NCBI GenBank assembly: GCA_023205875.1
Contig: CP060757.1
Span: 868,001-932,000, forward strand
DNA length: 64,000 nucleotides
From: Chloropicon primus
Taxonomy: Eukaryota; Chlorophyta; Chloropicophyceae; Chloropicales; Chloropicaceae
Direction: 5' to 3'
Made by a program: the position numbers and the translations under genes. The notes under the pieces were generated by a model, which was not told the DNA's origin, did no database searches, and saw nothing but the letters and a program-made list of their open reading frames with translations. Positions 56,180 to 63,417 of this stretch are shown here, piece by piece. How positions within the stretch are numbered: the first letter of the stretch is position 1; each line of letters begins with the position of its first letter.

Positions 56180-57466
56180 CTACCCCCCTTCTTGCTTTTC
56201 CTGCCTGAAAAAGAAACCCTTTTTCTGATTGGATTTTGGGTCCATGCCCAGCTGCTGCTGGAAGCGGGCAAGGGCACAAAGCCTCTCGAGGGATACGGCG
56301 TCCTCCATGGTCATACCCCGCGTTGCTTGGTTCCTCCTAAGCTCTTCCACGGCCCCAATGAAGCTGCCCATGAACTCCCCCTCGACCCGGAGCTGAAGCA
56401 GCTTCTGCTGGAGGAGCCCCCTTGCCTTGGCCACGACCTCGTGCTTCCTCTGGTACGACGACGTGCCCTCCAACGCGAGGTTCGACTGGAGGAGTAGGTT
56501 CCGAGTCCTGTCCTCGCTGCCCTCCTCGCCGTCCAGGAGGCGTGCCAGGGTTTCCTTGGGGATCCAACACATCGAAAGGGAATTCAGCTTGCCGGAGCAC
56601 GTGATGTCTTTCATCACCCCCCCGGAGCCCTGGCCGTCCGCCTCTCTCCCCGAACCCCTTGACGCAACGTCTTTCCACTGCTGCCCGTATTCCTTCATCC
56701 GCTCGATCCGCTTGTGAAGCAGCTGCCTTTGCTCGAGGAAGTCCTTCATGTCGGCCCGAAGCATGGCCAAGTCGGATTGAGTCATGTCTTCCACGCCGTC
56801 CACCCGCGTCTTGATCTCGTTCGCTCGCTCGGCCAGATCCTCCAGAGCGGAGGCGTGCCCGCCCCCAACCGTGCCGGGCCTCCCCCCCTTCAAGAGCTTC
56901 AGAGCCCTGCCCTTGAAAGAGGAAGCTGCCCCGGCGACGAAGTGGCCGTCCTCCAAAAGCGCCTCCGCGCTGTCGGTCGCAAGCTTTCTCAGTTCCTTCA
57001 CCCTCGGCGGGAGTTTCAGCTCGGGCTTCCTCCTCGGCTTTTGCGCGGGCTTCGGGGTCGGCGCCAGAGGCTCCCCTCTCGCCTCGGCCGCCTTGGCGGG
57101 CTTCTTCCCCCCAGCCCTCGAGGCCGCCTTGGCTTGCAGGGGGTCCACCACCCTCCGCGCTTTGGCCAGGATCTTCTCGATCTCATCGGGGAGCTCGGCA
57201 CCCGCAGGGCTGGCCTCCTCCCTCTTCGGCCGCGGAGCGCACACCTCCGCCGCCGCGGCGGGCCTCTCCCTTCGTCGCAAGAACGCCAAGCAAGCGTCCA
57301 CGTCCCTGTTCACCGTCCCCAAGGCCGAGTTCGCCCCCACCAGGTTACAGTAGGTCTCTCCCAGGTAATCTATCAGCTCGTCCAGGGTTTTGGACAGCCT
57401 CTCCTCCACTGGCTCGAGCATCCTGCCACCTTCCGCACTCCCTTCCCGCGCGTCGTCCCTCACCAT
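56180..57466 (-). CDS. Coiled-coil protein, unknown
   Basis: 428 residues, intronless. Helical start ([19 protein letters not shown]), a basic Pro/Ala/Lys linker at about 75-160 ([19 protein letters not shown]), two helical regions ([41 protein letters not shown]) and a C-terminal helical region. N-terminal layout is reminiscent of small centrosomal or tubulin-binding proteins, but I could not match a family. The start ATG sits in a CATG at 57464-57467 that also gives an ATG on the plus strand in the CTU fusion frame. Confidence 0.72.
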
Positions 57467-57528
57467 GGCTCTCTCTCACCTCCTCCTCTACATCCCCTCT
57501 CTTCTTTCACCTGTCGCCCTCTATCTCT

Positions 57529-57543
57529 CTTCCCGCCATTTTC
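57529..57543 (+). promoter_or_regulatory. TTCCCGCC element before the CTU fusion
   Basis: 15 nt, CTTCCCGCCATTTTC, identical to the reverse complement of the element before CDT1 (10188-10202). It lies 60 bp before the preferred ATG of the fusion gene. Confidence 0.5.
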
Positions 57544-57602
57544 CCCCCTCCTTTTGCCGGGGCAGGGCCAAGGTCCAAGTTGAGTTGTCAAACGAAGCGA
57601 CG

Positions 57603-60089
57603 ATGGTGCTCGAGCTGTGGAGGGACTGGTGCGACGGAAGCGACGAAGAAAGCGACAGCACGGGACTTGAGGAGGTCGACGAGGCGGAGTACTCGTACAT
57701 GGCGGAGTTCGAGGGGGGTGGCGGAGGGGCGTGCGGGAGGGCGTGTGATTGCGATGGTGGGGGTGGTGGGGTGGGGGGTGTGGACGAGGACGAGGACGGT
57801 CGCCCCTCGAGGAGGCAGTTCTCCACCCCGCCGTGCCTCAAGTGCGGGAACGCCCCCGCCCAGTTCATCGCGCGCCAACGAGAGCCCCTGTGCAGGACCT
57901 GCGCGGAAGATTCTATTTCGAACAAGGTGAAAACAACCATCGTGAGGCCGGGGCAGAAGGGGGCCTTCCTTCTGGGCGCGGACGACACGCTCGCAATCGC
58001 CTGCTCCGGTGGGTTCAATTCCATGGGTCTGATTGAGATCATCAGGGATCTGGCCGACTTGGAGTCGCAGAGGCGCCGCCCTCGGTTCGGGCGAGGGATG
58101 AAAGTTATACACGTCGTCACAGAATCCGAGGAGGACTCGAGGATCAGGCGGAGCCTCGCCGCGATCGATGCGTCGATAGAGTACGTCGCCGTGCCGCTGA
58201 GCCTGGTCGAGTCGAGCGACGAGAACCTTGCCCACTTTCTTGCGAGCGGAAGCCTCCAGCCTGGCTCCTCCTCGGCGACCAGCCTGGCCCCCTCGTCGAG
58301 CTCGAAGGCCTCGAAGCACCTGCTGAAGAAGCTCCTCGTCAAGCTCTTGTGCCTCAGGGTCGCCAAGGCCCTCGGCTGCACCAAGCTCGCTTTCGGGTAC
58401 AACGCCACGTACTTTGCGATGCACTCCCTCGCCTCGATCTTGAGGGGCTCCGGGTTTGCGCTGCCGGCCGAGTTGCAGTACACGGACTCGAGGTCTGCGT
58501 CCTGGGGCTTCCCGGACATCATCCACCCCCTGAGGGACTGCGTCTCCAAGGAGCTCCTTCTCCTGTGCTACTTGCGTAACATAGACTTCGTGGCCTCAGA
58601 GAGCGACATCGTGGGAGACAGGACGGATGTGAAATCCCTTTGCAAGGACTTTGTGTTCTCTGCCCAGGATAGGTTGCCGAGCACCGTGCTGACGGTCACG
58701 AAAACGGTCTCCAAGCTAGATTACGGCGGGATCAGGGAGGAGGATGTCAAAGTCCTGGACAGTGGCGGGAGAATCAAGCAAGAAAAGATGTGCCGCCTCT
58801 GCCTGTCGCCGATGTGCACCTCCTCCAAGGCCTTTGCGCTCTCTCAGCAGCAGCAGCGACAGAGGGCTGCCACGGGTGACCACGAGGAGCTCGAGGAGAG
58901 TTTCTGCTATTCTTGCTGCTCGCTGTTCGGGAAAAACAACGAGAATTTGAAGCTCTGGCCCGTTGGAAACGAGCGAGCCTCCGTCGGGGAATACCTCACT
59001 GCCAACAGCAGCGGCGGCGTGACTGATGTTATCGAGGAGATCAGACTCGTGCCTCTCGAGGAGGGCAGGAGTGTCCAGGTGGATCCACCCGCTTCGCTGG
59101 CGAGGGCCAGGCATGGAATGACCTGCGCTTACTGCAGGACAAACCGAGCCATGCTGAAGAGGCCCAAGACGAAGGAGAACGTGTGCAAGGAGTGTTTCTA
59201 CGAGGCTTTCGAGGAGGAGATCCACCAGACCATCATGAAGGAGAAGCTCTTCAACAGAGGCGATAGGGTCGCCATCGGCGCCTCGGGGGGGAAGGATTCT
59301 ACCGTTTTGATCCACGTGCTCAAGACGTTGAATGAGAGGTACGACTACGGGCTTGAGCTCTTCTTGCTTTCCGTGGACGAGGGCATCAGAGGCTACAGGG
59401 ATGATTCCCTCGAAACCGTTGCAAGGAATGAGCAGCAGTATGGCATACCGCTGGAAGTGGTTTCGTACAAGGACCTTTACGGGTACTCCATGGACGACAT
59501 CGTCGCAAAGGTGGGTCTGAAGAACAATTGCACGTTCTGCGGGGTTTTCCGAAGGCAGGCCCTTGACAGGGGTGCCGTGCTTCTCAACGCGAACAAGATA
59601 GTCACGGGCCACAACGCGGATGACATCGCGGAGACAGTGTTTCTCAATGTTCTTCGGGGGGACTTCCCGAGGTTGACCCGCTGTACAAACAGTATCACTG
59701 GGGAGGATAGCGCTCTGCCTCGGTGCAAGCCCTTCAAGTACACCTACGAGAAGGAAATCGTCATGTACGCCTTCCACAAGAAACTGGATTACTTTGCTAC
59801 GGAGTGCACCTACTCCCCCCAGGCGTACAGGGGCGTGGCGAGAGAATTCATCAAGGACGTGGAGATCATTGAGCCCGTGTGCATCTTGAACACGATCATC
59901 TCGGGGGATGAAATGAAGCTGGGAGCAAACTCTAGTTCAGGGAGGCCTCTGCAAGTGCAAGGGGAGTGCGCCAAGTGCGGTTACATGACCAGCCAAAGGA
60001 TCTGCAAAGCCTGCGTTCTCCTTGAAGGATTGGACAAGGGAGACGCTAGGTATGGGGTGTCGAGGCAAGCTTGCCGCCCTCTGAGGTAA
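57603..60089 (+). CDS. Fused cytosolic tRNA thiouridylase: CTU2 (NCS2)-like half plus CTU1 (NCS6)-like half
   Basis: 828 residues in one intronless frame. CTU1-CTU2 adds sulfur to U34 of tRNAs for Lys, Glu and Gln (mcm5s2U), receiving it from URM1. Residues 78-~485 are CTU2-like: zinc motif CLKCGNAP and CRTC, degenerate PP-loop SGGFNS (135-140), [18 protein letters not shown], then DIIHPLRDC and a C-terminal Cys cluster ([13 protein letters not shown]). Residues 508-828 are CTU1-like: CAYCRTN, CKECF, intact PP-loop SGGKDS (561-566), [16 protein letters not shown] (C643 region), [12 protein letters not shown], and a terminal zinc pair CAKCGY and CKAC. Only about 20 residues link the halves; the MTCAYC Met may be the former CTU1 start. 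An ATG at 57465 is an alternative start. Confidence 0.9.
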
Positions 60090-60202: not shown

Positions 60203-61726
60203 CTAAAAGTCGAGCATCATCGGTGTCGGCGCTTCATTCTTCTTCTGAGATCGATCATGGAACTCCGTGTACAGCACTTCGTTCGCTTTGGGGGTCTTGA
60301 AACCGCCCAACCATTCTTCGATCTGACTCGTGTTCGGGTTGCCTCTCGGGTGCCTCCGGGCCACTTCACTGTCGTGGTACAATTGCTCGAGCTGCCTCAG
60401 AATTTCCTTCCTGTCTATCACTCTCCTTCCCATTTCGTCCACCTGGTCGTCGTCTTTCATCTGCCCGCCCCCGTTGAGGCAGCCCGAGGGGCACGCCATA
60501 ATCTCCACAAAGTGGTAGGTCATCTTCTTCTGCTTGATCCTCCTGATGATGTTCTGGATGTTCCTGAAGCCGTAAGCCAGGGCAAAGTGCAGGATGACGC
60601 GGCCATCTTCGCCCTGCAAACTGATTTCCTGAAAGTCTTGGTTTCTGATCACTTTCAACGGCAGCGGCTTGTCTGGCTCGAACACTGCCTGGCCTCTCAG
60701 CCTCCCGACGCACTCCCTGAAGACGAACTCCAGGTAGCCTCCCGACGACCCGAAGTTCGAGAACTGCGCTTGCTGTGTGCCCGGACCCTGCAGGATGTCG
60801 TCGAAGGGCAAGGCGGGGCAGGTCTGCTCGGCAAAGGATTTCATCTTCAGCAGATTGTGAAACTCAGTCGTGGCCAGCACGCAGTCCAAGTCTGCGAATT
60901 CCCCAGACTTCAAGTCCTCCCTCAACGCCTCCAGCTTCTTGTCGAAGCACGGGGAGATGAAGCAGTGGTAGATCGACCCGGCGTCCACGCCCAACTTGGA
61001 CGGCAGGAGCTTCTTTGTCAGACTTCCCAGCGTGGCTATTGCGCTCCTCGCCTTGCTCATGTAGGGCAGGACGACCTCCCCGTGCGTCTTCTCGGCGTAC
61101 AGGACCCAGCCCGGGCACTCCGACGTCAGGAGTGGGAGGGAAAACCCTTGCCCGACCCCCCCCCTCCCGCTGGTGTACTTGTCCCAGAACTCCTCCAGGG
61201 TCGCCAGGAGGGCCACGTCGCGCCCTGTGTTGTCCTCGAGGACGAAGTCCGCTCCCAGTGACTTGAGGAACCCCGTCAGCCTCATCGTCATCTCCAGGGG
61301 GCTCAGGCCGTAGTGCGAGGCGAGGGACGTCCGGCTCGCTTGGCTTATGGTCACAACGACCACCCTGTCGCTCTCCGCCTTCGCCTCCAGCACCCTAAGA
61401 AACTCCTCCGTGGACTGCTGCTCCAGCAGGACGGTCTCCGCGCTCGTGACGCACCCACTGCATGCCAGACAGTCGTTCAAGCTGATTTTGACGGGATCCT
61501 CCCCCGCTTTCGACCCACCCGGCTTGGCGCCCTTCGGATTCGCCTTCGCCTGCCCCCTCCTCGCTCGGCTCTGGAGGCTCACTTCTCCCGTCTTCGCCTT
61601 CGCCTCGTCCTTTCCCGGCAACTCGGGCGTCCCCACGGCCACCACGCACGCCTGGCTCGGCGCGATGAAGTCGGAAACGTCCGCCAACCGCACCCCTCCG
61701 CTGAAGCTCGTCTCCACCGCCGACAT
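60203..61726 (-). CDS. NAR1: Cytosolic Fe-S assembly factor NAR1 (NARFL/CIAO3), Fe-hydrogenase-like
   Basis: 507 residues from the ATG at 61726; intronless. NAR1 bridges early and late CIA machinery, passing 4Fe-4S clusters to CIA targeting proteins. Cluster ligands are present: C27 (IAPSQACVV) with C86, C89, C92 (DCLACSGC), and the hydrogenase-like site Cys in TSECPGWVLYAEK, ISPCFDKKLEA and MACPSGCLNGGGQ. The last Cys that holds the 2Fe subcluster in true hydrogenases is not expected in NAR1. The conserved start FSGGVRLADVSDFIAPSQ resembles animal and plant NAR1. 78 bp separate it from divergent HCAR. Confidence 0.95.
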   Translation of the reverse strand: MSAVETSFSGGVRLADVSDFIAPSQACVVAVGTPELPGKDEAKAKTGEVSLQSRARRGQAKANPKGAKPGGSKAGEDPVKISLNDCLACSGCVTSAETVLLEQQSTEEFLRVLEAKAESDRVVVVTISQASRTSLASHYGLSPLEMTMRLTGFLKSLGADFVLEDNTGRDVALLATLEEFWDKYTSGRGGVGQGFSLPLLTSECPGWVLYAEKTHGEVVLPYMSKARSAIATLGSLTKKLLPSKLGVDAGSIYHCFISPCFDKKLEALREDLKSGEFADLDCVLATTEFHNLLKMKSFAEQTCPALPFDDILQGPGTQQAQFSNFGSSGGYLEFVFRECVGRLRGQAVFEPDKPLPLKVIRNQDFQEISLQGEDGRVILHFALAYGFRNIQNIIRRIKQKKMTYHFVEIMACPSGCLNGGGQMKDDDQVDEMGRRVIDRKEILRQLEQLYHDSEVARRHPRGNPNTSQIEEWLGGFKTPKANEVLYTEFHDRSQKKNEAPTPMMLDF

Positions 61727-61804
61727 GTCCCCTTTCCTGTCTCTCCAAGCGCCAAGCAGCCCTCGCTCGATCTCGATCTGCAGTTTGTGGAGTGAGTGAG
61801 GAAG

Positions 61805-63307
61805 ATGAAGCAAGGGAGGGGTGGTAACGCGGTGGCTTGCTCGTCCACGGCGTGTTCCCCTTCTTCAGGAAGGTGGAGGAGGGGTGGTAGCGCGGTGGCT
61901 TCTGCCTTGAAAAAGGGCGATGAAAGTGGTCTCGACCTTCGATTCAAGGAGCGTGTGAAGGGGATACCCCCGACGGAGGATGCCGTGTATCCGGCAGGGG
62001 ACATGTGCTCGAGATGCGGCCTGTGTGACACGTACTACGTGGCGAAGGTGAAGGAGGCTTGCGGCTTCATCGGGGACGGGATGTCGCGGATCGACCAGCT
62101 CGAGGAACAGGTGCACGGCAGGCAGAGGGACCTCGGGGAGGCGGATGAAGTCACCTTTGGGGTGCACGAGCACATGTCGTTCTGCAAGCTCACGCCTGGC
62201 GTGGAGGGCGCGCAGTGGACCGGCGTCGTCACGACCATCGCCGTCGAGATGTTGAGGGCCGGCATGGTCGAGGCGGTAGTGTGCGTCCAAAGCGACCCCG
62301 AAGACGAGTTGAAGCCGAAGCCATGCATCGCGATGACGGAAGAGGAGGTGATTGAGGCAAGGGGGGTGAAGCCTTCGCTCTCCCCGAACCTTGAGGTTCT
62401 GGCGGAGGTGGAGGCGCGTGGCATCAAGAAGCTCCTCTTCATCGGGGTGGGCTGCCAGGTCCAAGCCCTGAGGAGTGTCGAAAAGTACCTTGGCTTGGAC
62501 GAACTCTATGTGGTGGGCACCAACTGCACGGACAATGGCCCGAGGGAGGGCCTCGAGAAGTTCCTCCAAGTCACGAGCGCGAACCCGGATCAGGTCAAGC
62601 ACTACGAGTTCATGCAAGATTACCGCGTCCATATGATGTACAAGGACGGAGTGACTGTTGAGAAGGTGCCGTACTTTTGCCTCCCCGCGGACCAGCTCAC
62701 CGACGTCATAGCGACGTCCTGCTACTCGTGCTTTGACTACGTGAACTCCCTCGCCGACGTCGTGGTGGGCTACATGGGCGTCCCTTTCGAGGGGCCGGAC
62801 GTTCCCATGACCAAGCACTTCCAGTACGCGACGATCCGCAATGAGAAAGGCAGGGAAATCTGGGACCTTCTTCGAGGGACGGAGAGGTTGGTGGAGGAGC
62901 CCACCACCAGAGAGGGCGCGCGCCAGGACTTTGTGAAGCAGACCCTGGTGACGGACGACGACGTTCAACTGGGTCGGGCGAAGAGCAATCCGCTGCCGTT
63001 GTGGATCGGAAACATCCTGGCGGATGTCCTGGAGAAGATTGGACCAAAGGGACTCGAGTTCGCCGCCTACAGCCTGGACTACCACGTGCTGAGGAACTAC
63101 TTGCTGGTGTACAGGAGGCTGGGGAGGGAGAAAGCGTGGAGGCACCTGCCAGCCTACGCGAAGAAGATCATCGAGAGCGAGGATTACGAGGCCATCGTCG
63201 CCAAGCAGATTGCAAAGGGAGAAAAGGGGGAAGACTGGGATCTTCTCGATGAGATGGTGTCTGCGTTGCCGGGTGAGATCAGGGACCTTGTGAACAAGGT
63301 CCGCTGA
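61805..63307 (+). CDS. HCAR: 7-hydroxymethyl-chlorophyll a reductase-like (FrhB family flavo-Fe-S) protein
   Basis: 500 residues, intronless, with a Ser/Ala/Gly-rich N-terminus (1 to about 48) fitting a plastid transit peptide. Fe-S motif CSRCGLC (C68, C71, C74), then EACGFIGDGMSRI, GAQWTGVVTTIAVEML, VVCVQSDPED, GVKPSLSPNLEVLAEVE, FIGVGCQVQALRSVEKYL, GTNCTDNG, ATSCYSCFDYVNSLADVVVGYMG. This block order follows plant HCAR, which reduces 7-hydroxymethyl to methyl in the chlorophyll b-to-a cycle with ferredoxin. The same family contains the cyanobacterial-type 8-vinyl reductase (BciB), used in some prasinophytes; sequence alone cannot exclude that activity. Confidence 0.9.
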   Translation: MKQGRGGNAVACSSTACSPSSGRWRRGGSAVASALKKGDESGLDLRFKERVKGIPPTEDAVYPAGDMCSRCGLCDTYYVAKVKEACGFIGDGMSRIDQLEEQVHGRQRDLGEADEVTFGVHEHMSFCKLTPGVEGAQWTGVVTTIAVEMLRAGMVEAVVCVQSDPEDELKPKPCIAMTEEEVIEARGVKPSLSPNLEVLAEVEARGIKKLLFIGVGCQVQALRSVEKYLGLDELYVVGTNCTDNGPREGLEKFLQVTSANPDQVKHYEFMQDYRVHMMYKDGVTVEKVPYFCLPADQLTDVIATSCYSCFDYVNSLADVVVGYMGVPFEGPDVPMTKHFQYATIRNEKGREIWDLLRGTERLVEEPTTREGARQDFVKQTLVTDDDVQLGRAKSNPLPLWIGNILADVLEKIGPKGLEFAAYSLDYHVLRNYLLVYRRLGREKAWRHLPAYAKKIIESEDYEAIVAKQIAKGEKGEDWDLLDEMVSALPGEIRDLVNKVR

Positions 63308-63417
63308 TGGTGGTAGGCAACAAGGCGTGCAAGGCTCTCCTCCCTCTGAAAGCTAATAGATGGTATGTTTAGTTGTACAAAAGACGTTTAGATATCTTAT
63401 GATAGATTGTGCTATTC

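Follow-up and report, generated by a model that had tools for sequence, protein, structure and literature searches.

A single reading frame in the green alga Chloropicon primus joins CTU2-type and CTU1-type halves of the tRNA U34 thiolase

The reading frame and its two halves

In a 64,000-nucleotide window of the genome of Chloropicon primus, a very small marine green alga (contig CP060757.1), one intronless reading frame on the forward strand encodes a CTU2/Ncs2-type half (residues 1-505) followed by a CTU1/Ncs6-type half (Table 1). This frame most likely encodes the only cytosolic tRNA U34 2-thiolase of C. primus, with a non-catalytic CTU2 and a catalytic CTU1 covalently joined through a short linker. 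It is likely, though a little less so, that the product is a single-polypeptide U34 thiolase, an internal pseudo-dimer of a catalytic and a degenerate PP-loop half, in which the 1:1 pairing is hard-wired and neither CTU1 nor CTU2 occurs free in the cell. The enzyme is a known one of which ordinary chemistry is expected; its architecture is unusual and useful.

Table 1. Coordinates of the fused reading frame and its features in the window
Feature	Position (nt)	Strand	Evidence
CTU2-CTU1 fusion ORF	57603..60089	+	828 codons plus stop TAA
N-terminal acidic, Gly-rich extension (aa 1-77)	57603..57833	+	translation; without Pfam match
N-terminal Cys-pair site C78, C81, C97, C100, zinc-finger type	57834..57902	+	aligned to NcsA N-terminal site
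Degenerate PP-loop SGGFNS (aa 135-140)	58005..58022	+	fits CTU2 consensus SGGXXS
Pfam CTU2 domain PF10288 (aa 343-438), Cys pairs C397/C400, C435/C438	58629..58916	+	profile match
Linker, ~18 aa (aa 488-505)	59064..59117	+	start set by eye
CTU1/Ncs6/NcsA half (aa 506-828)	59118..60086	+	NF047749 match, 6scy match
N-terminal Cys-pair site C508, C511, C528, C531	59124..59195	+	translation, 6scy alignment
Intact PP-loop SGGKDS (aa 561-566)	59283..59300	+	translation, alignment
C643 and C646 of CTFC, predicted [4Fe-4S] ligand positions	59529..59540	+	6scy alignment
C735, predicted third [4Fe-4S] ligand position	59805..59807	+	6scy alignment
C-terminal zinc ribbon PF16503 (zn-ribbon_14, aa 787-817)	59961..60053	+	Pfam match

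The frame opens with an ATG at 57603, closes with a TAA at 60087-60089 and has no internal stop. Scored in 50-codon blocks from 57603, its in-frame codon score was positive in all 16 blocks. The codon model learned from 23 long frames in the window, picked mechanically as stop-to-stop stretches in order of decreasing length. At least one of these frames, 61867-63352 on the minus strand, is probably antisense to an FrhB-like gene, so the scores are approximate. A start at an upstream ATG in the same frame (57465) would lengthen the protein by 46 residues, and the added stretch scored -0.051, as non-coding sequence does. This stretch (57464-57602) is hydrophobic and Ser-rich, and overlaps the start codon of an upstream frame on the opposite strand (57466-56180). 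The original prediction, made from the letters of the window, was of a single intronless ORF carrying both halves, CTU2-type motifs first and CTU1-type motifs second; the 828 codons in one frame, with the motifs where they had been placed, bear it out.

The best NCBIfam model for the CTU1 half was NcsA (NF047749), matched by residues 506-811 over model positions 1-320 of 322 (E 1e-55), with Met506 falling on model position 1. The score of 186-189 bits lies under the curated cut-off of 500. Because the NCBIfam models are made for bacterial and archaeal proteins, we read the shortfall as “not an archaeal NcsA” and not as “not a CTU1”. The model of TtuA (NF049949), at 147 bits against a cut-off of 450, scored lower than that of NcsA (189 bits). 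In the PDB, the best match was the archaeal U34 thiolase NcsA (6scy); the CTU1 half aligned with it almost end to end (E 3.6e-41), sharing 33% of residues with the fragment of 6scy that was compared. The Pfam PP-loop domain PF01171 was matched above its gathering score by residues 556-742. The cluster ligands of MmNcsA are reported as C142, C145 and C233 (PMC10067955), and the three predicted ligand positions of the alga (C643, C646 and C735) align with cysteines of 6scy, as is to be looked for in a CTU1. The zinc ribbon scored 58.3 bits against a cut-off of 34.9, and both the N-terminal and the C-terminal zinc site of CTU1 were recovered. A full CTU1/NCS6-like half with an intact SGGKDS loop, as originally proposed, is what these matches describe.

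The CTU2 half was recognised by PF10288 at 29.9 and 30.3 bits against a gathering cut-off of 27.9, a margin of only 2.0-2.4 bits by hmmscan; a profile search of the genome gave 34.1 bits at the same locus. Its PP-loop has the form SGGXXS, the consensus given for CTU2 (PMC4014090). Other residues stand at the three positions aligned to the [4Fe-4S] ligands, none of them Cys, and there is no CxxC from the PP-loop to C397. The zinc sites C78-C100 and C397-C438 are kept, which completes the combination of features looked for in a CTU2. As a query against PDB sequences, residues 70-505 detected no relative: all 17 matches up to E 10 were unrelated (best E 0.66). The claim of a full CTU2/NCS2-like half, with degenerate PP-loop and Cys clusters, agrees with the PF10288 match, the SGGFNS motif and the Cys pairs.

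Compared directly by BLASTP, the two halves matched at E 2e-7 (a single comparison) and 19% identity. In hhalign, an alignment of seven archaeal NcsA sequences plus the CTU1 half matched the CTU2 half with a probability of 94.4 (E 8.8e-8, 250 columns); the match begins at the N-terminal Cys site of that half and takes in most of its PP-loop domain. By these comparisons the CTU1 and CTU2 halves are distant paralogues. Given the two motif sets, this paralogy and the match of the CTU2 half to the NcsA alignment, both halves look complete. Structure prediction with AlphaFold, using the seven archaeal rows, gave a mean pLDDT of 50 and a pTM of 0.39 for residues 70-828, where only the CTU1 core was confident, and 47.5 and 0.47 for the CTU2 half (residues 70-505); no reliable packing of the halves can be read from these models. 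Foldseek ranked NcsA 6scy first. We did not count this result, as the model was poor (rmsd 15-19 for the top 17 NcsA/TtuA chains) and the comparison was circular, the model having been built on NcsA rows.

One gene or two at the junction

In a minor correction to the original prediction, we place the junction between about residues 487 and 506; the CTU1 half starts at Met506 (nt 59118). A stretch of 66 residues separates the final Cys cluster of CTU2 (C435, C438, C439) from Met506. About 18 of them are presumably free linker, which would start where the C-terminal segment of CTU2 ends, a division made by eye. Residues 455-505 contain no stop, and frame 0 scored best of the six frames (+0.172 nats per codon; next best +0.041), against reference values of +0.243 for residues 1-454 and +0.304 for the CTU1 part. 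For the last 18 codons before Met506 it was again the best of six (+0.014) but uninformative. An open junction of 51 codons arose in 19% of base shuffles of the junction stretch and in 6.5% of sequences drawn with 3′-flank base frequencies, so that openness by itself proves little.

No splice-donor-like word GT(A/G)AG(C/T) was found in the whole ORF, and its only GTGAG lies at 57942, far from the junction. The looser word GT(A/G)(A/T)G occurs at seven places in the ORF, one of them near the junction (59181). No donor consensus falls at the junction, in line with the original statement that no stop, frame shift or splice-like signal separates the halves. Polyadenylation-like words (AATAAA, TGTAA) and TATA-like words are absent from the junction; the gene's own flanks also lack them, which makes their absence uninformative. 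A scan for sigma-70 promoters and terminators, with bacterial models, gave no match and is left out of the argument. Taken together, the facts of the junction favour one gene, rather than proving one protein.

Two proteins could nevertheless be made from the one locus, if the long frame yielded CTU2, directly or by cleavage, while CTU1 also arose separately through an internal promoter, a start at Met506 or proteolysis of the linker. We consider this improbable, though it is the strongest of the alternatives. Since Met506 coincides with the first position of the NcsA model, the natural start of CTU1, an internal start is possible, and a short linker with uninformative codons could be expected where a chain is cut or begins. 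On the other side, no stop precedes CTU1, so that a CTU2 mRNA would read into CTU1 unless it were cut short or the protein were cleaved. Across the junction (58960-59139, three blocks of 60 bases) the GC content is 0.57-0.67, compared with 0.33 just past the stop; this argument is weakened by blocks of 0.43-0.47 within the gene itself, including the block at 58900.

An error of assembly or consensus, by which two adjacent in-line genes lost a separating stop or frame, is less likely still. The RCC138 genome was assembled from Nanopore and Illumina reads (PMC12301720), and the other forward frames carry stops at 0-based codons 448, 472 and 505 and at 424 and 473, so a single indel could separate the halves. 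However, a polished, nearly telomere-to-telomere assembly is reported (PMC12301720), the codon bias lies in frame 0 throughout residues 455-505, and in view of the AT-rich 3′ flank it would be unusual for two eukaryotic genes to lie about 54 bases apart without a drop in GC.

Copy number and pathway partners in the genome

The fused gene appears to be the only copy. The genome (17,584,162 bases in 20 contigs) was searched in six frames, exon by exon. The PP-loop family search returned two matches, the fusion gene and TilS; the latter, on contig C5 (L001), had been a candidate for a separate CTU1 and was rejected. PF10288 matched only the fusion gene, with no second CTU2, and the zinc-ribbon search, with one match above the cut-off among the six listed, likewise gave no second copy. 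The whole protein found itself and one other stretch, on contig C2 (E 0.16, 32% over 78 residues), which we take as a chance match and not as a second copy. Separate CTU1 and CTU2 genes elsewhere, part of one of the findings on which the original prediction would have been given up, were thus not detected in the 17.58 Mb. A second CTU2 that was both very divergent and intron-rich could escape an exon-by-exon search.

URM1 is present as a two-exon gene whose product ends in GG, and UBA4/MOCS3 as a protein with ThiF and rhodanese domains, one of nine ThiF matches. ELP3 (TIGR01211, residues 114-641 of 694) was found on C4 near 103-105 kb (L060:274-2355, plus strand). Its C-terminus continues past the family domain into a hydrophobic stretch that looks like a tail anchor; a tail-anchored Elp3 is known from Toxoplasma. 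There were two strong MnmA-type matches and one short and weak one, and these genes could serve organelles. With URM1, UBA4/MOCS3, ELP3 and MnmA-type genes present, cytosolic U34 thiolation has its other known parts and needs a thiolase. That the fusion is a dead or repurposed copy is the least likely reading: the divergence of the CTU2 half is the sole point for it. Against it, the CTU1 half retains its PP-loop together with all three cysteines of the cluster and those of the zinc sites, the searches found no other copy, and the genome has URM1 and UBA4.

Among the 30 of 33 tRNA matches that were examined there was an intron-bearing tRNA-Gln(UUG). These 30 included neither tRNA-Lys(UUU) nor tRNA-Glu(UUC), in a search that is incomplete relative to the 46 tRNA genes of the RCC138 genome (PMC12301720). 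Introns seem to be common in the tRNA genes: the same loci (L030-L059) received an intron-bearing call in 17 of 30 cases with the intron option of ARAGORN, although a few of the anticodon calls in these look doubtful. Four tRNA-Pro(TGG) genes (L037 and L055-L057) stand in tandem at C4:1124897-1127803, spaced by 940, 948 and 947 bases. In Table 3 of PMC12301720, QTRT1 and QTRT2 of RCC138 are two genes (tags 05g40100 and 06g42800). Read as different chromosomes, these tags suggest that at least one other tRNA-modifying heterodimer is unfused.

Relatives and proposed function

In yeast, humans and Arabidopsis, CTU1 and CTU2 are two interacting proteins (PMC10067955, PMC4014090). The algal halves carry the same motifs as these eukaryotic pairs (Ncs6/Ncs2; ROL5/CTU2 in Arabidopsis), that is, SGGKDS with the cluster cysteines in the one and SGGXXS without them in the other. 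Unlike those pairs, they lie in one reading frame with CTU2 first, and at gene level are not two separate proteins. The archaeal NcsA homodimer (6scy) likewise has two PP-loop units per functional enzyme, and its arrangement resembles that of the modelled human CTU1/CTU2 pair (PMC10067955); a fused chain can therefore in principle fold as an internal pair. Whereas NcsA consists of two identical catalytic chains, in the alga one unit is degenerate and both are fused. The tRNA U54 thiolase TtuA (5mko, 5gha) is a sequence relative with a PP-loop and Cys sites, for which we know of no CTU2-type half.

A viral contig collection, scanned with the whole protein, each half and alignment A1, yielded no relatives. 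In a genome-contig collection without eukaryotes, none of the 18 candidate stretches of a first scan was a relative, and a scan with alignment A1 recovered archaeal NcsA-type loci in 7 of 32 candidate stretches. Among the papers listed from an open-access library, no title or opening of an abstract describes a natural CTU1-CTU2 fusion, in keeping with the original statement that no described one was known, and the main text of PMC10067955 uses neither “fusion” nor “fused”. This fusion may stand without comment in the published gene set, and databases may likewise hold fusions from other species.

We suggest that UBA4 would make the thiocarboxylate of URM1, the presumed sulfur donor. The CTU1 half would adenylate U34 with ATP through its SGGKDS loop and pass on the sulfur via a three-cysteine [4Fe-4S] cluster. 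The CTU2 half, with neither the Lys-Asp of the PP-loop nor the cluster cysteines, would give structural support and position the tRNA. Most likely the two halves pair with each other inside a single chain, as the subunits do in the archaeal NcsA homodimer, and pairing between two chains is also possible. We infer that the frame is translated as one chain that is active, pairs intramolecularly and is not cleaved; its stoichiometry would then be fixed at 1:1, and the delivery of URM1 could be changed.

The stoichiometry of the human complex was described in 2023 as not confirmed by experiment, recombinant CTU2 as not obtainable in soluble form, and one group's attempts at a recombinant eukaryotic CTU1/CTU2 complex as having failed (PMC10067955). 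In a 2026 review (PMC12954526), the way in which thiocarboxylated URM1 encounters the Ncs2/Ncs6 complex is among the unknowns. A natural fusion would be evidence from evolution that the working unit is 1:1, and purification, reconstitution and structure determination could be attempted with a single chain.

Downstream of the fusion, a convergent gene on the minus strand (60203-61813) encodes a Fe_hyd_lg_C domain and looks like NAR1/IOP1. NAR1/IOP1 is part of the cytosolic Fe-S assembly, which a [4Fe-4S] thiolase would need; that such a gene adjoins the fusion may be chance. The FrhB-like gene lies head to head with the NAR1/IOP1-like gene, on the plus strand (61796-63307).
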